The notes under the pieces were generated by a model. It saw only the letters and a program-made list of their open reading frames with translations, made no database searches and was not told the DNA's origin. Made by a program: the position numbers and the translations under genes. 64,000 nt of DNA from Gloeobacter morelensis MG652769 (lineage in GTDB: Bacteria > Cyanobacteriota > Cyanobacteriia > Gloeobacterales > Gloeobacteraceae), in contig NZ_CP063845.1 in assembly GCF_021018745.1 (NCBI RefSeq), forward strand, positions 2,232,001 to 2,296,000, read 5' to 3'. Shown piece by piece: positions 2,073-50,843 of the stretch; positions within the stretch are counted from its first letter, which is position 1, and each line of letters opens with the position of its first letter.

Positions 2073-3314
2073 TCATCGCTTTTGGAGGCGCGGCCACTCC
2101 CGCAGCACGGCTCCCGCCAGGTACAAAGAGCCGGCGATCACCGTCAGGCGCTCTGTATCACCGAGCCGCAGCGCTTCAGAAAAACCGGAGGCGCTTGCGA
2201 TGGAGCTCAGGCCCATAGTCTGCGCCATAAAGGCCAGCGTCTCGGGCGGATGGGAGCGGGCGTCGGGAATGGGGACGGCCACAAAAGTGTCCCCCGGACG
2301 GAGCAGGGCTCTCAAGACAGCTTGCGCGTCCTTGCTTTCAAGAATGCCCACGATCCAGCGGATAGATGCTTTGGGGTGAAGGCAGTCCAGGTAAGCGCGC
2401 AGAGCAACAGCACCGTCCTCGTTGTGGGCACCGTCGAGCAGCAGCCGCTCGCCCAGCCGCTGGTAGCGCCCCGGCCAGACGGTGTTTTCGAATCCGGCGC
2501 GGATCGATGTTTCATCAATAGGCAGTCCCCGCCCCCGGAGCACTTGGCAGGTGGCGAGGGCGGTGGCGCTATTTTGCAGCTGCACCCCGCCTGCGAGGGG
2601 AAGCCGGTAACGAATTCCCTGCCACTGCGCCTCACCCGGGGCGACCGCCCGGGCAGGCTCAGCCAAGGTGATCCCAACGTCCAACGCCAGTGCCTTTTTG
2701 GTAACTACCTGCATCGCTTCCGGGGACAGCGGCGCGCAGACCAGGGGGCAGCCGGACCGCAAAATCCCGGCTTTTTCGGCGGCGATGGCCGCCAGCGTGG
2801 AGCCGAGTTGCTCGCAGTGATCCAGACCGACACTGGTGATTACGCTCGCCAGCGGCGGCTCGAAGACGTTGGTGGCGTCGAGTCGTCCGCCCAGTCCGAC
2901 CTCGACCACCGCCACTTCGACGGCGGATTGGGCAAAGTACAAGAATGCGGCGGCCGTGACAATCTCGAACTGGGTGGGCTCCCCCAAACTTTTCGGCAAA
3001 TGCTCGGCGGCAGTTTTTACTGTTGCCAGGCACGCCTGCAAAGCCCCGTCCGAGATAAAAGCACCGCCTATCCAGATGCGCTCGTTCCAGTCGAGCAAGT
3101 GGGGTGAAGTGTAACGGCCCGTCCGATACCCGGCCGCCTGCAAGATATGGCTCAGATAAGCGCAGACCGAGCCTTTGCCATTGGTCCCCGCCACATGCAC
3201 GGCTTGGAAGGTAACCTGCGGCTCCCCCAGGCGCTTCAGCAGCGCACGGATGCGCTCCAAGCCCAGGTGAACGCCAAATTTTTGCAAGTGATCGAGATAG
3301 CCTCCAGCCGTCAT
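2073..3314 (-). CDS. folC: Folylpolyglutamate synthase / dihydrofolate synthase
   Basis: This cytosolic 413-residue enzyme adds glutamate to dihydropteroate or folate, forming dihydrofolate and folylpolyglutamates. The P-loop GTNGKGS is at residues 43-49. TSPHL (69-73) is the substrate-binding segment, VEVGLGGRLDATN (137-149) is the family signature, and LDHCEQLG with EKAG (164-183) is the metal and Mur-ligase-like region. WPGRYQ (280-285) and DGAHNEDG (294-301) mark the C-terminal domain. Length and motif order match bacterial FolC. Whether it has both activities or only one cannot be decided by eye. The acyl-CoA synthetase follows on the same strand after 78 bases. Confidence 0.93.
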   Translation of the reverse strand: MTAGGYLDHLQKFGVHLGLERIRALLKRLGEPQVTFQAVHVAGTNGKGSVCAYLSHILQAAGYRTGRYTSPHLLDWNERIWIGGAFISDGALQACLATVKTAAEHLPKSLGEPTQFEIVTAAAFLYFAQSAVEVAVVEVGLGGRLDATNVFEPPLASVITSVGLDHCEQLGSTLAAIAAEKAGILRSGCPLVCAPLSPEAMQVVTKKALALDVGITLAEPARAVAPGEAQWQGIRYRLPLAGGVQLQNSATALATCQVLRGRGLPIDETSIRAGFENTVWPGRYQRLGERLLLDGAHNEDGAVALRAYLDCLHPKASIRWIVGILESKDAQAVLRALLRPGDTFVAVPIPDARSHPPETLAFMAQTMGLSSIASASGFSEALRLGDTERLTVIAGSLYLAGAVLREWPRLQKR

Positions 3315-3371: not shown

Positions 3372-3572
3372 GGCGAAGCGGCTGGCTCGCCCCATCGCCG
3401 CAGTCGACACGCGTCGTGCAGGCCCTGTAGGAGTAGGCCGATCCCACCCGCCAATGCTCGTTCCCGACCGTGCCTTTAAGTCCGGGGGGTGTCGGGGGGC
3501 TGGCAGCCCCTGACGCGGGGAGGGGGAGAGCGCGAGAGGGGAACCCGAAGGGGGTTCCGCCTCTCGCTCACC
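3372..3572 (-). repeat. Structured 3'-end repeat, copy A (subfamily 1)
   Basis: This is one of four copies of a dispersed repeat in the window. It is listed in the orientation in which it follows mscL. The strongest element is a hairpin at 3532-3567, with arms GCGAGAGG and CCTCTCGC enclosing a second stem of GGAACCC with GGGTTCC and a CCTTC loop. It begins 72 bases after the mscL stop. A second hairpin built on GGGGCT and AGCCCC follows. The rest of the unit (3372-3480) is shared with copy B but not with copies C and D. Together with flanks it fills the 324-base gap between folC and mscL. Open frames through it encode Gly/Arg/Pro-rich peptides and are probably spurious. Confidence 0.85.
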
Positions 3573-3638
3573 CGCTGTCGAGCCAAACCAAAGAACCAAA
3601 GAACCCAAAAACGGCAAAAAATCCGGGAATGCCGCGGC

Positions 3639-4055
3639 TCACTTCGTCGGCGAACCCACCAGCACCGAAGTACAAAAAGGGCAGCGGCGCGCAGTGATCG
3701 GAATTTCGCTGGCGCACTCGGGACACTTCTTGGTGGTCGGGTCGGGGGACGGTTCCTTGCGCGCCTGCGAAATCAGGGCGTTCACCGGCAGCACGACCAA
3801 AAAGTAGACCACCGCCGCAATGATCAAAAACGAGACGACCGCGTTGATGAATTGGCCGTACATGAACTTGCTGTTGTTGATCGTAAAGTAGAGGCCGGAG
3901 AAGTCCGGCTGGCCGCCGATGGCGGCAATTAGCGGTGTGATGAAGCTTGAAACCAGGGTTTCGACGATTTTTCCGAAGGCGGCACCGATGACCACGCCCA
4001 CGGCTAGGTCGACGACATTCCCCCGCAGCAAAAATTGTTTGAATCCGTCCAGCAT
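3639..4055 (-). CDS. mscL: Large-conductance mechanosensitive channel with C-terminal zinc ribbon
   Basis: This inner-membrane channel opens under membrane tension to release solutes during hypo-osmotic shock. The 138-residue protein has the amphipathic N-terminus MLDGFKQFLLRGNVVDLAVG, TM1 at about 15-42 with the AVGVVIGAAFGKIV pore-lining core, and TM2 at about 71-92. The start at 4055 is chosen over an upstream ATG at 4091 because MscL proteins begin at this point. The unusual part is the tail: Cys111, 114, 125 and 128 form a CPEC-x10-CPFC zinc ribbon instead of the usual charged helical bundle. This is seen in some MscL relatives. The 3' end is followed by structured repeat copy A. Confidence 0.95.
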   Translation of the reverse strand: MLDGFKQFLLRGNVVDLAVGVVIGAAFGKIVETLVSSFITPLIAAIGGQPDFSGLYFTINNSKFMYGQFINAVVSFLIIAAVVYFLVVLPVNALISQARKEPSPDPTTKKCPECASEIPITARRCPFCTSVLVGSPTK

Positions 4056-4748: not shown

Positions 4749-5240
4749 ATGAACGATATTCTGGTATTGGCGATCGACGCGGCGCGCGCCCGTTTTTTGG
4801 CCCTGGAGCGGCCGGAATTTCCCGAATGGGAGCCCGGGCCGACGCTTGTCGAAGGGGAGGCGCTCATCAACGCCGAGCGCGAGGCGGCCGGGCGGCAGCT
4901 GTGGTCTGAGATTAAGACGGGGCGCAACCGTGGACCGGGAGCCGGTCCTGCCCACGCCTACGACGATCACCGCGAAAATCACGCGGAGGAGTTCGAGCGG
5001 CGCTTTGCCAGGTTGGTCGCCCAGGAGGCCGCCCGCCGCGCTGACCGGTTTCAGGTGCGTCAGGTAGTGCTGGTGGCGGAGCGGCGGATGCTCGGGTTTG
5101 TCCGCGAGGCGCTCGCTCCGCTATTGGGTGCTCAGGTGCGCCTGGAGGAGTTGGCTAAGGATCTCTGCAAACTGAGGGCGGCTGAGTTGCAGGCGCATCT
5201 GGCGGGGGAAAACTTGCTGCCGGCGCACCGGCGGCCATAG
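4749..5240 (+). CDS. Host attachment protein family (PF10116-like)
   Basis: This 163-residue cytosolic protein resembles the family annotated as required for attachment to host cells. Supporting features are the N-terminal ILVLAIDAARARFLALE strand-helix, the central HAYDDHRENHAEEFERRFAR segment, and the C-terminal VRQVVLVAERRMLGFVREAL and LAKDLCKL motifs. The family fold resembles release-factor eRF1 domains and its biochemical role is poorly understood, so the name should not be read as function in a free-living cyanobacterium. It begins 4 bases after the 4436 gene, suggesting a two-gene operon, and its 3' end is followed by structured repeat copy B. Confidence 0.8.
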   Translation: MNDILVLAIDAARARFLALERPEFPEWEPGPTLVEGEALINAEREAAGRQLWSEIKTGRNRGPGAGPAHAYDDHRENHAEEFERRFARLVAQEAARRADRFQVRQVVLVAERRMLGFVREALAPLLGAQVRLEELAKDLCKLRAAELQAHLAGENLLPAHRRP

Positions 5241-5289
5241 AGCAGTTTGAAGTTGCCTAGATAATCGTTTTCAGCCTGGCGGTTGGTTT

Positions 5290-5505
5290 TGCACGAGGGT
5301 CTGTGGGTGCGAGAGGCGGAACCCCCTTCGGGTTCCCCTCTCGCGCTCTCCCCTCCCCGCGTCAGGGGCTGCCAGCCCCCGACACCCCCGGACTTAGGGG
5401 CACGGTCGAGAACGAGCATTGGCGGGTGGGATCGGCTTACTCCTACAGGGCCTGCACGACGCGTGTCGACTGCAGCGATGGGGCTGGCTCGCCGCTGAGC
5501 TGCGA
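5290..5505 (+). repeat. Structured 3'-end repeat, copy B (subfamily 1)
   Basis: This copy lies downstream of, and in the same orientation as, the host-attachment-type gene. The main hairpin is at 5309-5344: arms GCGAGAGG (5309-5316) and CCTCTCGC (5337-5344), an unpaired C, then GGAACCC/GGGTTCC closed by a CCTTC loop. A second hairpin is at 5361-5383 around GGGGCTGCCAGCCCC. The tail from about 5395 to 5505, including TTACTCCTACAGGGCC, matches copy A closely but is absent from copies C and D. The unit and its flanks fill the 343-base gap before the porin. There is no T-run directly after the main hairpin, so it is not a textbook terminator. Confidence 0.85.
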
Positions 5506-5583
5506 AGGCATTGGGGTGTGGGGTGGCTCAGGCAAACGCCGTGCAAAACTTGGACAGGAAACGGTTTTTCCCTGGCACCTACT

Positions 5584-7101
5584 CTAAAAATCGAACGTTG
5601 CGCGCAGGGTGCCGACTTGTACGGTTGGGTTTTCGCGGTTGTTTTCGGGATTGAAGATCGTGAGCAACCCGGGGGTGATCGAGATGCGGTCGGTGAGGCG
5701 GATGCGATAGAAAATTTCGAGATGCACTGCCCCGTCCGGATCCTGAAACTTGTTGCCTAGATCGCTACGCACCACGCGGGGCGGTTGGCCGACGACGAGG
5801 CCGCCCAGGTTGCCCTTGCCTCCCAGGTCCGCGAAGGCAAAGGAGAGCGCGTAGTTGACGATGCTGGATCCTGGGCGGGAGGGTAGATCGTCGGCGCGCG
5901 CCTCGGTGAGGCCGAACCAGCCGCCGATTTGCAAGCCTGGGGAAATTTTCCAGAACCCCTGCAGGCCGTAGGAATCGGCGAAGACGCGCTTGCTGTCGCC
6001 GTCGAAGGGGTCGTTGGCCCGTTCGCTGCCGGTGCCGGTGTCGAGAGCGTTGAAGGTGCGGATATAGCTCAAGCCAATCCCGGTGGTCTTGCTCGGCTGG
6101 AAGTTCAATTGGGCGAGTATCCCGGTGGGCAGGAAGCGGTCGGTCTGCCTGGCATCGTCGAGATCGTCGTCCTCGGCCAGGGAGCCGAAGTCGGCCACGA
6201 AACCCGCCGAGAGGGTGAGGGTCTTGGTGGCCTCCCAGCGCACGCCCGCGCCGGTGCCGCTGATGAGCCGGTAAATGGCGTTGCGCTGGCCGAAGCGCGA
6301 GATGGCACCGCTGCCGGTGCTGCCCACCAGCGGATGGAGTGCGTCGGTAAAGTCGTCGAGGCGGCCCCCCAGAGCTCCGATGTAGACGCGCAGATTTTTG
6401 GCGAGGTCGAAGCGGTACTCCAGCCGGGCGACGTTGAAGACCCGGTTGGTGTTGCCCCCTACCCCGAGACGGGCCATGTCGCTGCCGGCAAGCGAACCGT
6501 AGTTGGGAAAATCGCCCGCCTGCAGCCGCACCCGCAGGCGGTCGTTGCGGCCGAAGGTCGTGTCGAAGGTGAGGCGTGCCCGGCCGCTGAAGCGCACGGC
6601 GGTGCTGTCGTCCTCGTCCTCGTCGTCGATCGGGTTGCTGAGGGTGCTCAGGCCGAAGATCACCTGGCCGCTCATGGTGGTTTTGCTGTCAAATGGGGCG
6701 TACTTGGCCCGATCCAGGCGCTTTTCGAGGTTTTCGAGGCGGGCGGTGAGCGATTCGCGCTCGGGAAGAAACTCCAGTTGCAGCCGCCGCAGGGCGTCGA
6801 ATTGTTCGGCATCCAGCGCATTTGCCTGTTGCGCCGATTTTTCGACGGCCGCGAGCACCCGGCCGAGGCGAACGGCAAATTCGGCGCGCGAGATGAGCAG
6901 CGCATGCGGATGGGCAGGGTCCGGCAGGCCCAGCCGGCGCTCCAGGCCCGCAAGCGTGCGCTCGGCCCACTCGCCTGAGCGTACATCCGCCAGCTGCGAG
7001 ACGGCAGGGTCCGGCTCAGCTGCCAGTGGCCCCGCTCCGAGCAACAGCGAGGCGAGCAGGGCGGCTAACCCGCGATTTCGGCGGGCGCTACGGCGGGCCA
7101 T
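5584..7101 (-). CDS. Outer-membrane porin of the cyanobacterial SLH/OprB-like family
   Basis: This 505-residue protein probably forms an outer-membrane beta-barrel for ion or small-solute uptake. A signal peptide spans about residues 1-28 (twin Arg, then [18 protein letters not shown]). It is followed by a short SLH-like region (about 36-90, with [19 protein letters not shown]), a helical coiled coil (about 98-132, [20 protein letters not shown]) and alternating beta strands to a C-terminal Phe (GTLRATFDF), typical of barrel proteins. This order matches cyanobacterial iron-uptake-type porins. Its ATG lies 37 bases inside the 3' end of the epimerase gene, so translation is probably coupled. 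It is the last gene of the polysaccharide operon. The transported substrate cannot be deduced. Confidence 0.85.
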
Positions 7102-16449: not shown

Positions 16450-16746
16450 ATGGAAGAGCGCTTCGATCGTGTTGAGCAGCGGATGGACCAGCACGGCGAG
16501 TTGATAGCGGAGCTGCGGGCTGCCACCCTTGCCAACAGTCAAAACCTCGATCGGCTAGCGGGCATCAGCGAGCGATTCATTTCCGTAGCGGTCGATGCCA
16601 TCACCGAATTGCGGATAACCACGAACCGGCTAGAACAAAACGTCGTCCGCCTTGACCGGGCTATAGAGGAACTGCGGGCCTCCAACCGGCGCCAGGAATC
16701 GATCAACGACTACCTGATTCGTCGAGACCGGGAGCGGGGCAGTTAG
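16450..16746 (+). CDS. Hypothetical coiled-coil protein, 98 residues
   Basis: This short, charged, heptad-rich protein (for example FDRVEQRMDQHGELIAELRA and LEQNVVRLDRAIEEL) is predicted to be almost wholly helical and to form a coiled coil. There is no signal peptide. The start ATG 16450 gives MEERFDRVEQ. An in-frame extension to 16417 is possible but lacks a better ribosome site. No family is recognised beyond similarity in style to cyanobacterial small coiled-coil proteins. It stands alone between the divergent polysaccharide operon and repeat copy C. Confidence 0.72.
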   Translation: MEERFDRVEQRMDQHGELIAELRAATLANSQNLDRLAGISERFISVAVDAITELRITTNRLEQNVVRLDRAIEELRASNRRQESINDYLIRRDRERGS

Positions 16747-16814
16747 GTACCAGGTATCAGGGGGCTTATAGAACCGATGTAGACAGTCCGGGATGGCCCG
16801 GCGACGTTGCCAGC

Positions 16815-17000
16815 CATTTTGCCGCAGTCGCCACGCAAAGCGTGCACGCACTGGAAACATTCGCCAAGCCCACCAACCCACTCTCCCGCCAGCCGCGCCG
16901 ATAAGTCCGGGGGGTGTCGGGGGGTGGCACGCCCCCGACGCGGGGAGGGGGAGAGCGCGAGAGGGGAACCCGAAGGGGGTTCCGCCTCTCGCTCACCCGC
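16815..17000 (-). repeat. Structured 3'-end repeat, copy C (subfamily 2)
   Basis: This copy is downstream of, and in the same orientation as, the CHAT gene. The main hairpin is at 16957-16992 with the same arms GCGAGAGG and CCTCTCGC as the other copies, starting 137 bases after the CHAT stop. The distal part, including CACGCAAAGCGTGCACGCAC and GGAAACATTCGCCAAGCCC, matches copy D rather than A and B. Within it CACGCAAAGCGTG is a small hairpin of its own. The unit fills most of the 382-base space between the 16450 gene and CHAT. The remaining 17000-17128 shows nothing recognisable apart from A-rich runs. Confidence 0.83.
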
Positions 17001-17128
17001 TGTCGTGCGCAGCCAAAAAAATCAAAAGCGCGCAGACAAACCCAGCCATCTCACCCAGATTCGACCTGAAAAAAAAAGGCACAAAGAAAGTTGCCTCCTG
17101 GCACCCCATCGCCCGCACCGAGCGAACC

Positions 17129-20056
17129 CTATCGCCCGGCTGCGCTCTGAAAGAGCCCCTGTACCGGCCGCCAGTCCCCCGAGAGAATAAAGGACGACCA
17201 GTAGTACGGATGGCTGTACTGTTTGCTTTTGAGCAAATTGAGCTGAGCTTTGCGCAGCCCCTCGCCGCGGCCTGCCCCCTGCTGCAACTGCCGGTAGTAC
17301 TGCACCATCAGATCGCGCGTACCCTCGTCTTCGACCTGCCAGAGGCTCACCAACTGGCTTTCCGCACCCGCCAGCGTCAGCGCCCGCTTGAGGCCGTAGA
17401 CCCCTTCGCCGCTCGCGATTTCCCCCAGTCCCGTCTCACAGGCCGAAAGCACCACCAGCCGGGTGCCCTGCAAATTCAGCCCCGACAGTTCCAACGCCGT
17501 GAGCGCCCCATCGTCCCCGCCGCTGTCGCGCTGGTTGAACCCGGCCAGAACCAGCCCCGAGCGCAGCAGCGGATTTTTGGCTTGCTCCTCGACCTCCTCC
17601 AGAAAAAACCCGTGGGTGGCGATGTGCAAAATCCCCGGCCCCCGCACTTGCTTGAGGGCGTTCTCGGTGGCATTTTTGCCGGTAAGCACCCGCGCCTCGG
17701 GCAGCAACTCAGCAATTGCCTCCGCCTCCTCAGCCGTAGCCGGCAGCGGATCGTAGCGAAGTTTGCCCAGATCTGCCGCGACCGGTTCGGTGCTGCGCCT
17801 GCGTCCCTCCCCCGCCGAGCGCGTCCGGGCGGTCTCGGCATTATCAAAGTTTGGATTGGCGACAATCAGCGCGGATTGGACAGCAGGTTGCGAGCGGCCC
17901 AATCTAAGCAAATCCCGGCCGGAACTTAAATAGCTGATCGTGTAGTTCTCGACCAGATAGCGGTTGCGCTCATCGATCAGGGTGGCAAAGGGCAACAAAT
18001 TGAGCATTCCGTCCGGGGAAATCAAGATGCGGCGAGGGTTGCCCAGCTTGCGCCGAATGGGAGCCATCAACTTCTGTTCGAGGCGGCGGGCCAGGGGTTT
18101 GAGCTTTGCTGCGGAACGCTCGCTATTTTGCAACTGTTGGCGTAAGGCTGTCGCGGCAGCATTGAGAGACGTCGCTTCTCCCAGATCCAGCCACTGCAAC
18201 TTCCCCTGACTATCCAGCAGATAGGCAGCGTAGCGCGCCGCCCCAAATTGTTTGTCCCGCTCAACTGCCTGCAAATTTAGCGGCCGGTACTGAACGATTT
18301 CGACCAAGGCCGTGTCCGCCGGCAACTGCTGCCGTACCGAGTCGAGCGTCACTGCGGTGCTCTGCCGGACAAACTCGGCACTGCGGCGGCTGAGGCTAGT
18401 CTCTAACTGCTCTGCCTGGGTCTCTAGAGCGGCAACCTTCGCCCGATACTGCTCGGGAGTATCGTCTTCCAATCCTCGGAAAACAAGGGCCGCCAGATTA
18501 GAGCGGGTTGCCGTCAATTCATCCAGCAGCTTCTGCTCGTCGGGTTCGAGGCGTTGGCGCAAAGCGCTATTGGTGTCGCTGAGGGCGTCGAGCAGTCTGC
18601 CTTTGCGTCGCAAGACAGTGGTCATGGCCAAGCGGGCTGCCTCCGTGTCCTGCGACGCCACTTGCTGGTGAAGCCAGAGAGCAGTGTCGGTGGTTTTGGC
18701 AAGGGTAGCCAGGTAATCGCGCTTGCGCTTCTCTGAACCGGTGCTGAGAGCCAGTGTCAGGTTGCGCTCTTGGATACCAAGGCTGCTCTCAAGCAGTTGC
18801 ACAGCAGATTGAAGTTTCTTTTGCCGCGTGCGTAATACGGCCAACGTTTCAAGGGATTCACTAATAAATGGGTGATCTGGAGGAAGAGCCTTCTTGCGAA
18901 TGGATAAAGCTCTTAGATGGATAGAATCGGATTCATCGAATTTGCCTTGGTAGTTGTACAGCTCAGCCAAGCTGAACAACGTTCTTGCCACATCCGGATG
19001 CTCGTTGCCTAAACTCTTTTGCCGAATTGTGAGAGACTGCTGGAGCAGAGATTCGACCTGCGAATACTTACCAGCATATAAGTACAGGGTTGCTAAGTTA
19101 TTGAGGCTTCTTGCCGTGTTGGGGTTTTCGGGGCCAAGAGTCTTTTCCGCAATCGCAAGAGCTCGCCTGTACAACGGCTCAGCTTGACTATATTTACCCC
19201 AATCTCTATATACATCAGCCAAGCCATTGAGACTAAATGCTAAGTTGGGGTGATCAGGACCAAGAGCACCCTCTGTGATTTTGAGAGCTTGTAGATATAG
19301 ATTCTCTGCCTTTGCATATTGTGCCCCTTGATTTCTATAAACTTCAGCCAAATTGTTTGTAGCTGTAGCAACACTGGGGTGTGTGGATCCGAGAGTTTTT
19401 TCTAAGATAGTTAGGGCACGGCTCAGCAAGGGCTCAGCTTCAATGTATTTGCCCTGGTAACTATAAAGCGTTGCCAAGTTGCTAAGGTTTTTGGCCACTT
19501 CAGGATGTTCCAGACCCAGACCTTTCTCTCGGATAGCTAGAGCACGTAGGAGTAAGGGTTCGCCTTCAGTATATTTACCCTGGTTAATGTGTAGAGCCGC
19601 TAAGTTATTAAGGCTTCTTGCGACATCTGAATGTTCTGCACCAAGTGCTTTTTCCCGCGTTGCTAAAGCACGACGTAAAAGGGGCTCAGCTTGTTCATAC
19701 CTTCCTTGACGTATGTAGAGAACTGCCAGAGCGTTCAGACTCGTAGCTACTTCCGGGTGTTCTAGGCCAAGCACACTTTCTCGAATTATAATTACTTGCT
19801 GAGCGAGCGGGACTGCTTCTGCGTACTTGCCACTTTCCCTTAGCTTTTCTACCTGTGAACTAAGGCCGTGTGCTTTTTGCAACTGTGCTGCAGGCGAACT
19901 TCCTACACCAGGTTGATCCTGGCTGATGGCTGGCTGAGAATAAGTTAAAAGCAACCATACGGACAAGCAAAGACCCGCCCAATAGCCATGCATTGCTTTG
20001 GTGTCGTAAGTATATGTTTTAGCTTTTACCTCTAACCCTCTCTCCTGCGGTTTCAT
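17129..20056 (-). CDS. TPR-CHAT protein (caspase-like peptidase domain with tetratricopeptide repeats)
   Basis: This 975-residue protein has a hydrophobic segment near the N-terminus (about 26-46, a signal peptide or anchor), about eight TPR units of 42 residues (about 85-430, consensus YxEAEPLLRRALAIREKxLG), a helical linker, and a C-terminal CHAT domain. The CHAT catalytic pair is His815 (HIATHGFF) and Cys873 (LSACETGLGE), both intact, so it should be an active cysteine peptidase of the caspase clan. The start at 20056 has AAGGGG just upstream. An internal ATG at 19993 would begin at the hydrophobic segment. The TPR half is AT-richer than the CHAT half. CHAT-TPR proteins occur in bacterial conflict and cell-death systems, but no partner gene is adjacent here. 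Confidence 0.9.
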   Translation of the reverse strand: MKPQERGLEVKAKTYTYDTKAMHGYWAGLCLSVWLLLTYSQPAISQDQPGVGSSPAAQLQKAHGLSSQVEKLRESGKYAEAVPLAQQVIIIRESVLGLEHPEVATSLNALAVLYIRQGRYEQAEPLLRRALATREKALGAEHSDVARSLNNLAALHINQGKYTEGEPLLLRALAIREKGLGLEHPEVAKNLSNLATLYSYQGKYIEAEPLLSRALTILEKTLGSTHPSVATATNNLAEVYRNQGAQYAKAENLYLQALKITEGALGPDHPNLAFSLNGLADVYRDWGKYSQAEPLYRRALAIAEKTLGPENPNTARSLNNLATLYLYAGKYSQVESLLQQSLTIRQKSLGNEHPDVARTLFSLAELYNYQGKFDESDSIHLRALSIRKKALPPDHPFISESLETLAVLRTRQKKLQSAVQLLESSLGIQERNLTLALSTGSEKRKRDYLATLAKTTDTALWLHQQVASQDTEAARLAMTTVLRRKGRLLDALSDTNSALRQRLEPDEQKLLDELTATRSNLAALVFRGLEDDTPEQYRAKVAALETQAEQLETSLSRRSAEFVRQSTAVTLDSVRQQLPADTALVEIVQYRPLNLQAVERDKQFGAARYAAYLLDSQGKLQWLDLGEATSLNAAATALRQQLQNSERSAAKLKPLARRLEQKLMAPIRRKLGNPRRILISPDGMLNLLPFATLIDERNRYLVENYTISYLSSGRDLLRLGRSQPAVQSALIVANPNFDNAETARTRSAGEGRRRSTEPVAADLGKLRYDPLPATAEEAEAIAELLPEARVLTGKNATENALKQVRGPGILHIATHGFFLEEVEEQAKNPLLRSGLVLAGFNQRDSGGDDGALTALELSGLNLQGTRLVVLSACETGLGEIASGEGVYGLKRALTLAGAESQLVSLWQVEDEGTRDLMVQYYRQLQQGAGRGEGLRKAQLNLLKSKQYSHPYYWSSFILSGDWRPVQGLFQSAAGR

Positions 20057-20193: not shown

Positions 20194-21333
20194 TCAGTTT
20201 GAGTCTTGAGATACAGCTTGCGAGTCGAGGAACAAGATCATGTTCTTCGTCTGCGTTTGCGCTTCGTCTGCCCGCGAATTCACAGGCAAAATTGAGTCGA
20301 TGAACAAGATCATGTTCCTCCCTTCTGTTTGAGCCTTATCTGCCAGTGTAGTTGCAGGAGAGTTGGAGTCGATGAACCAGATCATGTTCTTCCCTTCTGT
20401 TTGAGCCTCATCCCTAAGTGGTTCAGCAAAGAAATCAGTATTTGCCGGCTCTATTTCGGATCCAACTTCAGTCAGTGATAGCTTCCAGATGACGTTTTCA
20501 CCGCTAGACCGATTGCGCCAAAGGATTTCCGCTTTACCATCTTGATCGAAGTCTTTAGCGCTGCCAATCTGCCAGTTCAAATCTGGTTGTGATGGCAAAG
20601 CCGCAATTGAGACAAGTTTCGCACCGTTCATAAACCAGATAAGATTCTCGCCACTAGATTTGTTTCTCCAGACGATGTCTGGCTTGGCGTCCCCATTGAA
20701 ATCTGCAAAACTTGCTAACTGAAAGTCGATATCACTCAAAGTCGGCAAAGTAGTGTTTGAGAGACGGGTCATACCGTTCATAAGCCATACGGAATTCTGG
20801 CCAGAGGCTTGATTGCGCCAAACCAGGTCGGGTTTGTTGTCTGCATTAACGTCCGCTACACTTACCATCTGCCAGTTGGGCTGAGATGGAAGCGGCAACA
20901 AAGTGCTTGAAATTAGGGACGTACCATTCATGAGCTACAGAGAGTGCTGGCCACTGGTCTTGTTACGCCAGACAATATCTGGTTTGGTGTCGCCGTTGAA
21001 ATCTCCTGTGCCCACGATCTGCCAATTGCGATCAGTCTGCGAAGGTAAAGAAGCGGTAGACACATATGATGCACCGTCCATAAACCAAACAGCATTCTCG
21101 CCAGCTTCCGGGCCAGCACCGTAATTTCGCCAAAGAATATCCGGATGACCATCACAGTTGAAGTCACTGTTACCGCAACTTATCGATTGAGCAGAGGCCG
21201 GAGGAATCGACGCCATTAATGCGGAGCTCAAAAGAAGCGGAATAAGACTAAGACTACTTGCCAAACTTGCCGGTGCTGTCGAATGCCACACATTTGCAAG
21301 GATCGTTACCTGTTTGCGTTCGAGCATGCCCAT
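20194..21333 (-). pseudogene. FG-GAP/VCBS repeat secreted protein, interrupted by an in-frame TAG
   Basis: The reading frame from ATG 21333 to 20194 encodes a secreted VCBS/FG-GAP repeat protein of 379 codon positions, paralogous to the next two genes. A single TAG at 20935-20937 splits it into 132 and 245 residues. The frame continues without shift: SGQHSL-stop-LMNGT aligns with SGQNSVWLMNGT in the other repeats, so the stop replaces a Trp codon (TGG to TAG). A signal peptide lies near residues 18-47. Repeats of about 45 residues (DFNGDxKPDIVWRNKxSGxNxxWFMNGxxxxS) follow. The C-terminus has three near-identical 24-residue units. It may be a recent pseudogene, a readthrough case or a sequencing error. 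Confidence 0.85.
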
Positions 21334-21402
21334 CTCCTAATGCAAATAATGCAAAATACCAGCGCATTGTACAGCTACTTTGGCAAAACCTCAACACGCA
21401 GA

Positions 21403-21458
21403 CTGCAATAGCAAATACAAATAAGCTCACTATGGCTTATTTGTATTTGCTATTGCAG
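21403..21458. repeat. Perfect 24-bp inverted repeat between two VCBS genes
   Basis: Positions 21403-21426 and 21435-21458 are exact reverse complements over 24 bases, separated by the 8-base loop TCACTATG. The arms are AT-rich (key segment GCAAATACAAATAAGC). It starts 26 bases after the stop of the upstream VCBS gene on the minus strand and would form a long hairpin in RNA from either strand. It lacks the GC-rich stem and trailing T-run of an ordinary terminator. It could be a terminator of unusual type, a processing site, or a tiny mobile-element relic. Confidence 0.9.
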
Positions 21459-21483
21459 ACCATTGAACCTGGCTGTCAATCCT

Positions 21484-22467
21484 TCAGTTCTGTCCGTAGG
21501 CAATAGCCTGCGAGTCGAGAAACAAAATCATGTTCTCAGCATCTGTCCGAGGATTGCTCGTCAAACCGTTACTGGCTGTGCGATCGACCGGTGCGTACAC
21601 GTTCACAGGCGGCAAGAAGGGGGTCGAGGAGACTTTAGTGCCGTTCAGGTTCCAGACGGCGTTCTCACCGCTAGTCTGGTTGCGCCAGAGGACTTCGGCC
21701 TTGCCGTCGTTGTTGAGGTCTTTCGCCCCACCGATTTCCCAGTTGAGATCGGCCTGGGTGGGCAGGTTGGCGGTCGAGGTGCGGGTGGTGCCGTTCATGT
21801 ACCAGATGGTGTTCTGGCCGGTGGTGCTGTTGCGCCAGAGCAAATCGGGCTTTTTGTCGGCGTTGAAGTCGCCCACACCCACGGCCTGCCAGGCGGTGCC
21901 AGTCCAGGTGGGCAACTCAGCAGTTGAAGTCCGGGTGGTGCCATTCATCAGCCAGACGGAATTTTCGCCCGTAACTTTGTTGCGCCAGACCAGGTCGGAC
22001 TTGGCGTCGGCGTTGAAGTCCGCCACACCCACCATCTGCCAGTTCGGATCGCTCTGGGCAGGTAGGGTGGCCGTCGAGAGGCGCTGGGTGCCGTTCATCA
22101 GCCACACGGAATTCGCACCGGTGGCCTTGTTGCGCCAGATGATATCGGGTTTGCCGTCGGTGTTGAAATTGCCCGTCCCCACGATCTGCCAGTCGGGATT
22201 GGTCTCCACCGGCAGATCGGCGTAAGAAAGATAGGTGGTGCCGTTCATGAACCACACGCCCGTCTTGCCGGCGTTAAAAGTGCCGTAGTTGCGCCAGAGG
22301 ATGTCCGGCTTGCCGTCGCAATTGAAATCGCTCTGGGCGCAGGCAGTCTGGGCGGGCGCGGAGCTGCTTGCGAGCACCAGCGCCACACCGGCCATCGACG
22401 CGATCAGCAGGCCCCCCCGGACGCCAATCGCCTGACCCATGACACCTGGAATGTCGAAAATCTTCAT
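21484..22467 (-). CDS. FG-GAP/VCBS repeat secreted protein, intact paralogue 1
   Basis: This 327-residue exported protein has an N-terminal hydrophobic segment (about 16-40, GGLLIASMAGVALVLASSSAPAQ broken at its cleavage region), then six or so VCBS units of about 45 residues with the Ca-binding-like core DFNADxKPDLLWRN and the spacer WFMNGTTxxSxAxLPxQ. Such repeats form beta-propellers like integrin alpha-chains. The C-terminus ends NMILFLDSQAIAYGQN, matching the tag that is triplicated in the neighbouring interrupted gene. It belongs to a tandem set of three paralogues. The ligand and location (periplasm or outside) are not known. Confidence 0.88.
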   Translation of the reverse strand: MKIFDIPGVMGQAIGVRGGLLIASMAGVALVLASSSAPAQTACAQSDFNCDGKPDILWRNYGTFNAGKTGVWFMNGTTYLSYADLPVETNPDWQIVGTGNFNTDGKPDIIWRNKATGANSVWLMNGTQRLSTATLPAQSDPNWQMVGVADFNADAKSDLVWRNKVTGENSVWLMNGTTRTSTAELPTWTGTAWQAVGVGDFNADKKPDLLWRNSTTGQNTIWYMNGTTRTSTANLPTQADLNWEIGGAKDLNNDGKAEVLWRNQTSGENAVWNLNGTKVSSTPFLPPVNVYAPVDRTASNGLTSNPRTDAENMILFLDSQAIAYGQN

Positions 22468-22504
22468 GAAAAAATGCTCCTTCGCTACAACCTGGGCGGA
22501 AGTC

Positions 22505-23617
22505 TCACTTGGTAATTGCCGACCAGGGGCTGGGGGTGCCCTGGATTTGCGTTGTGCTCGGAAGACCGTTGGCGGCGTTCAACGACGCGACGTTGACCAC
22601 CTGGGGCAGGTAGCCGGTGAGATTGAAGGTGATGCCGTTCATCAGCCAGAGGGCGCTCTCGCCGGTGACCTTGTTGCGCCAGACAATGTCGGTCTGGCCG
22701 TCCTGGCCTGCTATCACTTGCGGAATCGAGCCGCTCTGAAGCTTGCCGTAGTCGCCCACGCCGACGATCTCCCAGTCGAGATTGCTCACCGGCGAAAAGG
22801 TCGCCGATTCGGTGAAGGTGGTGCCGTCGAGGTACCAGACGCGGTGGGTGCCGGCCTCGCTGCCGCTGCCGTAGTTGCGCCAGAGAATGTCGGGCTTGGC
22901 GTCGCCATTGAAATCGCCCGCCCCCACAATCCGCCAGTTAAGGTCGCTCTCCGCCCCAAGGATGGTCGAAGAGACCCGCACGGCCCCGTTCATGTACCAG
23001 ACGCGCACCTCGCCGGTGGCTGTGTTCTGCCAGAGGATGTCCGGCCGGGCACTGTCGCCGAAATTGTCCACAGCGACGATTTGCCAGTCGAGGTCCGACT
23101 CCACAGGCAGCGGGATCTGCTCGAAGTCATCATCGTCGTCATCGTCGTCGGTAAAGCCACGGCCGTATCGATTGTCGTCATCATCGTCGTCATCTTCCAG
23201 CGACCAGACGTAGTTCAGGCCGCTACCAAAGTCGCGCCAGACGATATCCGTCTTGCCGTCAGCCGTGAAGTCGCCGGTGCCCCCGATTTGCCAGTTGAGA
23301 TCGGTTTGGGCGGGCAGGCTGACCGCCGAAAGGTAGGTCAGGCCGTCCATGTACCAGACCAGATTTTTGCCCGCGTCGGCACCGGTGCCGAAGTTGCGCC
23401 AGACGACGTCGGGTTTGCCGTCGCAGTTGAAGTCGGTGCGCGCGCAGGCGGGTGCTTGGGCGGGTGCTGAAGTGCTGAAGACCACCAACGCCGCGCATAG
23501 GCCCGAGGCGGCCAGCAACCCCAGCCCCAGGCGGTGAAGCGCCGATCGCCCGCGGGGGCGAGAAGCAGCGAATGCCCTTTGGAATATCAAGATACCTTGC
23601 TCCTTTTCGTGCTTCAT
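22505..23617 (-). CDS. FG-GAP/VCBS repeat secreted protein, paralogue 2 with acidic insert
   Basis: This 370-residue protein has a basic N-region and a hydrophobic signal segment (about 30-53, ending SAPAQA), followed by five VCBS/FG-GAP units (for example DFNGDAKPDILWRNYGSG). The third unit is interrupted by a strongly acidic loop consisting of two Asp runs around NRYGRGFT (about residues 140-165), encoded by GTC/ATC-rich repeats at 23125-23200. This loop is absent from the other paralogues and may bind calcium or be a slippage product. It starts 231 bases from the divergent sigma-factor gene, so the two share one intergenic control region. Confidence 0.87.
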   Translation of the reverse strand: MKHEKEQGILIFQRAFAASRPRGRSALHRLGLGLLAASGLCAALVVFSTSAPAQAPACARTDFNCDGKPDVVWRNFGTGADAGKNLVWYMDGLTYLSAVSLPAQTDLNWQIGGTGDFTADGKTDIVWRDFGSGLNYVWSLEDDDDDDDNRYGRGFTDDDDDDDDFEQIPLPVESDLDWQIVAVDNFGDSARPDILWQNTATGEVRVWYMNGAVRVSSTILGAESDLNWRIVGAGDFNGDAKPDILWRNYGSGSEAGTHRVWYLDGTTFTESATFSPVSNLDWEIVGVGDYGKLQSGSIPQVIAGQDGQTDIVWRNKVTGESALWLMNGITFNLTGYLPQVVNVASLNAANGLPSTTQIQGTPSPWSAITK

Positions 23618-50048: not shown

Positions 50049-50336
50049 ATGCCCGACATCTACACGCCGCGCCCCGATATCGTGATGCGCTTTCTCAAAG
50101 AAGCCGGTTTCGAAAGCCAGGTGCAGCCGACGATTTTGAAGGATCGGCCGCGGGACATTACCTATCGCTTCCGCACCGGCGATACCTACGTGGAGTTCTA
50201 CGTCCATGACATCAAAGCCCTCCCGGAGCCGCCCGGACCGTTGTTTGAGCCTGCTTCCGCCGCGGGCGGTGCGCTTGTCGGTGCCGCTTTGACCGCGGCT
50301 GTGGGCTGGTGGTTCGTCCGGCGCCGCATTGTGTAG
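50049..50336 (+). CDS. Small protein with C-terminal membrane anchor, 95 residues
   Basis: The product begins MPDIYTPRPDIVMRFLKEAG behind AGGAGA 8 bases upstream. It has a small alpha/beta domain (SQVQPTILKDRPRDITYRFR, TYVEFYVHDIKAL) and a C-terminal Gly/Ala-rich membrane helix (AAGGALVGAALTAAVGWWFV) ending RRRIV. It is probably tail-anchored with the domain in the cytoplasm. No family is recognised. The upstream frame is open for another 145 codons (see the separate entry), so a 240-residue form cannot be excluded. Structured repeat copy D follows its stop. Confidence 0.65.
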   Translation: MPDIYTPRPDIVMRFLKEAGFESQVQPTILKDRPRDITYRFRTGDTYVEFYVHDIKALPEPPGPLFEPASAAGGALVGAALTAAVGWWFVRRRIV

Positions 50337-50374
50337 TTTTCGCTTTTAAATTCTTTGGCTCCTTGGCTTTGCCC

Positions 50375-50562
50375 GACAGTCTGTGGGTGCGAGAGGTGGA
50401 ACCCCTTCGGGTTCCCCTCTCGCGCTCTCCCTCCCCGCGTCGGGGCGTGCCACCCCGACACCCCCGGACTTCAGGGCCCGGTCAGCGGGAGAGGTGATGG
50501 GTGGGCTTGGCCAATGTTTCCAGTGCGTGCACGCTTTGCGTGTTGACTACGGCGAAGAGGTC
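50375..50562 (+). repeat. Structured 3'-end repeat, copy D (subfamily 2)
   Basis: This copy is downstream of and in the same orientation as the 50049 gene. The main hairpin is at 50389-50423 with arms GCGAGAGG (50389-50396) and CCTCTCGC (50416-50423), beginning 53 bases after the stop. A second hairpin GTCGGGG/CCCCGAC is at 50439-50459 with loop CGTGCCA. The tail (GGGCTTGGCCAATGTTTCC and GTGCGTGCACGCTTTGCGTG) matches copy C. The distal edge abuts what looks like a truncated coding fragment. Confidence 0.83.
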
Positions 50563-50843
50563 GTCTGAAAACCTCAACGGACAACGGTTGCAGTCCTGAC
50601 GCCTATTCTACAAAGTACGATTTAATTGGTGAGTACGAGGGTGCACAAACTGCCTTCGAGAATGAACAGGACAGTGCACCATCTGTTCTTCTCCGGCTGA
50701 AGCAATTGCGGGATCGTGCCCTCGCCCGCATTGCCGACCTCGGCGACGGCAACGGTCTTGCCGGTAGCAAGACCAACAATCGTCCTCCTTCGCCCCTGGA
50801 ACCTGGTGATCTAGCCGCCGACCCGCAAATCGGGCCAGACTGA
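50547..50843 (+). pseudogene. Possible 3' remnant of a coding sequence next to repeat D
   Basis: After an in-frame stop at 50544-50546 the plus strand is open for 98 codons to TGA 50841-50843. The translation from about 50580 (DAYSTKYDLIGEYEGAQTAF, ENEQDSAPSVLLRLKQLRDR, ALARIADLGDGNGLAG) has a protein-like composition and ends in a Pro/Gly-rich tail. There is no ATG, GTG or TTG near its beginning, so it looks like the C-terminal part of a gene cut off at the edge of the repeat. The family is not recognised. It lies 81 bases before lipA. Confidence 0.45.

Follow-up and report, generated by a model that had tools for sequence, protein, structure and literature searches.

Palindromic, extragenic repeats lying near gene 3' ends are well represented by the REP/BIME and REPIN families, and MITEs with a structured interior by the Correia/NEMIS elements of Neisseria. 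The Gloeobacter repeat analysed here recalls both in its organisation; however, REP/BIME and REPIN units measure 20-40 bp and are linked to RAYT transposases, whereas the Gloeobacter unit is about 340 bp long with TAGAGC ends, and the likeness to Correia/NEMIS, for which we know of no stop-codon habit or shuffled core, is one of architecture and not of compared sequences. RUP of Streptococcus pneumoniae is an IS630-Spn1-related MITE of about 107 bp whose target is TA. Like the Gloeobacter repeat, it is short, non-coding, present in high copy number, bounded by inverted ends and in excess between convergent genes, a distribution also known from pneumococcal SPRITE and IS elements, where it has been read as tolerance (PMC3049150). 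This is a likeness of organisation that leaves the sequences of the ends aside; no separate shuffled core has been described for RUP, and we found no description of stop-codon-exact insertion. SPRITE also bears a hairpin and is enriched between convergent genes (PMC3049150), but it resembles a Rho-independent terminator, whereas the Gloeobacter hairpin has no T-run. MITEPsy1 of Pseudomonas syringae (100 bp, listed as 'IS5?') has the size of the solo wings of the Gloeobacter family and inserts after CTAG or YTAA (PMC3189936); it differs in its inverted repeats (GGAAGGTCTGAAAAAGCC), its reported 4-nt duplication and its lack of a core. In the literature searched, which covered few subscription papers, we found no account of a comparable Gloeobacter repeat, of insertion exactly at stop codons or of cores being shuffled within locus-specific wings, and we have thus classed the family as a MITE without an assigned transposase family and with an unusual shuffled core. 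We think it quite probable that these repeats constitute a mosaic family of stop-codon-inserting MITEs with gene-converted hairpin cores, whose placement at 3' ends results from tolerance combined with a preference for CTAG.

The window, that is, the whole 64,000-nucleotide stretch analysed, covers positions 2,232,001-2,296,000 of the 4,921,229-bp contig of Gloeobacter morelensis (G000). It was compared with G001 (4,659,019 bp), which we take to be G. violaceus PCC 7421, with G002, the draft MAG 'Aphanocapsa lilacina HA4352-LM1', with G003 (4,724,791 bp), presumably G. kilaueensis, and with 16 more distant genomes. As stated in the preliminary description, the window contains four copies, each preceded by a gene stop (mscL, Host_attach, CHAT and one gene without known function) and each carrying the hairpin GCGAGAGG...CCTCTCGC around GGAACCC/GGGTTCC. 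They have in common a 197-bp core (referred to below as the core of about 190 bp); the coordinates first given were about right for this core, but too short for the units, the inserted unit being about 340 bp according to empty sites.

All four cores were delimited with nhmmer. Copy A (core 3398-3591, minus strand; hairpin 1 at 3532-3567, minus) lies in a tandem gap, in the sense orientation, between mscL (3639-4055, minus) and a Mur-ligase/folC-like gene (2073-3314, minus); it is present in G001 and truncated in G002. Copy B is a complete element on the plus strand (5238-5586), found at the same place in both G001 and G002. Its left end TAGAGCAGTTTGAAG begins inside the TAG stop (5238-5240) of the Host_attach gene and its right end CCTGGCACCTACTCTA finishes in the CTA at 5584-5586, where the convergent OprB gene has its TAG stop. 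Its core occupies 5282-5475 (plus) and its hairpin 1 5309-5344 (plus; about -28 kcal/mol on either strand), and the interior of this element of about 340 bp contains only short ORFs without apparent meaning and no transposase gene. Copy C (core 16822-17015, minus; hairpin 1 at 16957-16992, minus) is also in a convergent gap, between the gene at 16450-16746 (plus) and the CHAT gene (17129-18802, minus). By direct reading, core and right wing span 16744-17015 (minus), and the wing end ..ACCTGGTACCTA coincides with the TAG stop (16744-16746) of the plus-strand gene. Copy D (core 50363-50552, plus; hairpin 1 at 50389-50423, plus) follows a 95-aa gene (50049-50336, plus) within a tandem gap; the whole element runs approximately from the TAG stop to CCTGACGCCTATTCTA (50334-50610, plus), with a putative left end, and its core is missing at the orthologous locus of G001. 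The window also includes tandem repeats of about 150 bp (20471-23358), which overlap coding calls on the minus strand.

DNA and pattern searches detected at least 53 cores in G000, at least 40 in G001 and at least about 35 in G002, all lower bounds with some 40 candidates scored per genome, and none in G003 or in the 16 more distant genomes. Relatives of the repeat are thus found in two of the three other genomes of the genus, and the repeat DNA of the window matches the rest of G000 with E-values down to about 1e-76, so this likeness is not due to chance. An exact scan for the hairpin 21-mer in a collection of 85,000 species, from which records close to G000 may be missing, returned G002 records and one Pseudodesulfovibrio MAG. 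The family was initially considered lineage-specific, and full-length copies are indeed seen solely in genomes of the genus Gloeobacter. The Pseudodesulfovibrio contig (NZ_JAQUWN010000087.1) harbors at 229-331 a hairpin with the stem and tail of the Gloeobacter core, single-copy in that genome and identical to copy B over 27 nt (GGTTCCCCTCTCGCGCTCTCCCCTCCC), and another similar GGGTTTCCCTCTCC..CCCCGGACCCCC stretch is located at its start; this match seems unlikely to have arisen by chance.

The idea of a mobile element directed at 3' ends, one of those initially put forward, is supported: orthologous sites are found empty, the termini form inverted repeats, and ends fall at stop codons. For copies without an ortholog, the flanks were located and compared in the other genomes, and the orthologous empty sites show that about 340 bp, and not 200, were inserted. 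The best case is the site cgCTAGgcc of G001 and G002, which corresponds in G000:902508 to CTAG, about 340 bp and CTAA; the length of other complete inserts is 316-346 bp, and further presence/absence loci include G000:4267011, G001:1816074, G001:3259303 and G000:4920214, among others. Copies have been gained and lost between close species. The element ends are TAGAGC(G/A)GKTT...CCTGACACCTGnnCTA and the target is YTAR/CTAG; the left end reads TAGAGCGGTTTTCAGTTGCC and the right end GGTTTTTACCCTGACACCTGnnCTA, which in reverse complement (TAGnnCAGGTGTCAGG) is similar to the left. These terminal inverted repeats are clear in solo copies of 84-106 bp, which have the same ends and no hairpin core, and in some of the copies with a core: among 108 full cores they are recognisable at 34 left ends, at 44 right ends and at both ends of 15. 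Many copies have worn ends, a minority of cores lie in other wings with a second end type (TATCGAATCCG), and some copies have no visible ends. Several copies show TA or YTA at both ends (CTAG..CTAG, TTAG..TTAA, CTAG..CTAA), a pattern that fits a duplication of 2, 3 or 4 nt alike.

The terminal TA(G/A) coincides with the flanking gene's stop codon at 31 of 37 right and 21 of 29 left recognisable ends, nearly all at offset 0; with orthologs merged by hand, this corresponds to about 17 right and 13 left distinct loci. At four separate loci (G000:902508, copy B, G000:2610300 and G001:3678029) both ends lie in the stops of convergent genes, the element filling precisely the space from one stop to the other, and since the terminal TA is that of the stop codon, both genes retain their stops. 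The empty sites of G000:902508 and G000:4267011 demonstrate that the stop predates the insertion. CTAG is found at a stop codon in 54 of 411 cases (13%), about six times the proportion for all TA (303 of 13473, 2.2%), in a sample where these loci are over-represented. The stop-codon habit is shared by solo MITEs, which lack the hairpin, and placement is thus a property of the wings and not of the hairpin core.

These features suggest a simple scheme, in which the outer MITE (84-106 bp alone; inverted repeats TAGAGC(G/A)GKTTNCAG) would enter YTAR, best CTAG, and duplicate the central TA (or YTA). As the first base after TA in the inverted repeat is G, insertion within a stop codon would regenerate TAG, and at a CTAG common to two convergent genes both stops would survive, so that 3' ends, those of convergent genes in particular, would be neutral places to land. 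Tolerance and the CTAG preference, and not a targeting factor, would then account for the placement. The unit is presumably mobilised in trans by a transposase that either resides in the genome or has been lost. Neither the PF13358 matches nor the fetched part of the PF01609 matches includes a transposase gene bounded by such ends (TAGAGCGGTTT). The two multi-copy IS630-type groups examined have ends (TAAGTAGG and TATAGCTGTCGCCA) unlike those of the repeat, so that no IS630-type driver was found among them; nor did the fetched PF01609 loci, a part of all such matches, yield an IS4/IS5-type driver. PF01609 matches number 64 in G000 versus 25 in G001, which is an IS expansion in G000.

Genes around the copies were called with a custom codon-model ORF caller, for which long ORFs from the surrounding DNA served as the training set, and the resulting gap assignments are as approximate as these calls. 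The 127 copies of the three genomes are distributed among convergent (80), tandem-sense (24), tandem-antisense (14) and divergent (9) gaps; once orthologs are merged, the corresponding numbers for 89 loci are 53, 19, 12 and 5. Convergent gaps thus host 60% of the loci versus a baseline of 14% (p about 4e-23) and divergent gaps only 6% versus 24%, indicating that the copies shun promoters and prefer 3' ends. This strong placement at gene 3' ends is consistent with the preliminary description. The constant orientation relative to the upstream gene, also reported there, is true of the four window copies but not of the family: a genome-wide tabulation, as had been suggested, gives 19 sense and 12 antisense loci in tandem gaps, with no departure from half (p=0.28), and fixed orientation was thereby rejected as a sign of function. 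The initial impression came from a sample of four of which only two are in tandem gaps; in a convergent gap either orientation passes as '3' of a gene', and the copies with cores at 5282 and 16822 are thus uninformative. At the 3' end of a folD-like gene (assigned by eye), the copies G000:C1:217342 and G001:C1:2002605 are oppositely oriented, which suggests independent insertions or an inversion.

The convergent excess also bears on the possibility that the repeats are bidirectional barriers or supercoiling/gyrase sites of the BIME kind, selected between convergent genes after insertion. Although 60% of the loci are convergent, the hairpin is stable on both strands and the cores are conserved and homogenised, we judge this quite unlikely: insertion in stop codons can itself yield a convergent excess, solo MITEs without a core have the same habit, and the similar excess of pneumococcal RUP, SPRITE and IS elements was attributed to tolerance (PMC3049150).

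An alignment of 108 cores shows that the arms GCGAGAGG/CCTCTCGC and the end GTCGACTGCGGC are almost invariant, while the middle (105-178) is variable, and that the stem includes a paired change from GGAACC/GGTTCC to GGCACC/GGTGCC (A-T to C-G at 38/52). Such paired changes and conserved blocks, together with a very stable hairpin located at 3' ends, could be the signature of a conserved RNA that is read in a single sense downstream of genes, be it as a terminator, a decay barrier or an sRNA, the more so as, to our knowledge, Rho is absent from cyanobacteria and strong hairpins could matter there. Nonetheless, we regard such a function in the transcript 3' end, the other idea put forward in the preliminary description, as very unlikely. 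G.T (9) and A.C (14) mismatches in the stem are both rare and show no RNA-strand bias, which fits selection or copying at the DNA level better than in an RNA made from one strand. The hairpin is followed by GCTCTCCCC without a T-run, and no terminator-like site (hairpin and U-tract) was called within copies A and B. Orientation varies in tandem gaps, the occupied loci differ among species as copies come and go, and hairpin-less solo MITEs occupy the same kind of place. The repeat has no Rfam match at gathering score, the only such match of the window being one tRNA, and this, together with the lack of G.T bias, led us to reject the RNA-element reading. The copies may have a side effect on 3' ends, but it would be secondary.

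Whereas the wings of one locus align closely across species, its core is a patchwork. Among copies that share a right wing, orthologous cores diverge nearly as strongly as cores of different loci: the ortholog/paralog divergence ratio is 0.88 for the core spacer (bootstrap 0.76-0.98) and 0.45 for the right wing (bootstrap 0.30-0.61), and it ranges from 0.30 to 0.49 across most of the left wing. The spacer is the reciprocal best in only 8 of 43 orthologous pairs. Flanks are also swapped: G002 C42:3230 associates the mscL-side flank with the right flank of G000:323705, and G000:346588 combines the flanks of two G001 copies. Core shuffling and flank swaps likely reflect ectopic gene conversion with occasional crossing-over between copies, perhaps initiated by breaks at the extruded palindrome. 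In the proposed scheme, cored copies add about 250 bp to the MITE, including the GC-rich hairpin core of about 190 bp, and the cores of all copies swap sequence, most likely by gene conversion of the RecA type started at the palindrome, while the wings remain locus-specific.

That the hairpin arms and GTCGACTGCGGC are so extremely conserved could be a sign of a selected function. The core might be an independent mobile or homing module, entering and replacing itself within different MITE wings by its own mechanism, as shuffling ends near the core boundaries, one core is found in at least two wing types, and the primary sequence of the hairpin and right end is conserved. This also appears quite unlikely, considering that homology-limited gene conversion would give identical boundaries, that the core has no associated enzyme and that we observed no case of a core lying outside wings and having its own clean empty site. 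Unlikely too, in our opinion, is the bolder proposal that the core of about 190 bp is a self-propagating hairpin module that repeatedly overwrites its counterparts in stop-codon MITEs of different wing types through a dedicated site-specific or palindrome-break-driven process, and thus forms one pool across some 50 loci whose carriers are fixed. Targeted integration into the core was considered for the split copies G000:911914/912913 and G002 C45 but rejected, since an old copy has here been interrupted by an IS and by another insertion. In G000, a transposase gene (PF01609 match, IS982-like by eye) with ends ACGTCAGTTCGGG lies at 912008-912884 inside this old core copy, and in G002 the same orthologous copy contains a different insertion of about 5.6 kb with long inverted ends (TGACCTGCCAAATCCTCATACTTTCC).

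Returning to the mosaic MITE family, a G after the TA, restoring stops on both strands at CTAG, would provide a simple cause for a 3'-end and convergent bias that is often taken as regulatory. With some 50 marked loci per genome, the family would also constitute a natural set in which to measure palindrome gene conversion and rearrangement in an early-branching cyanobacterial lineage.
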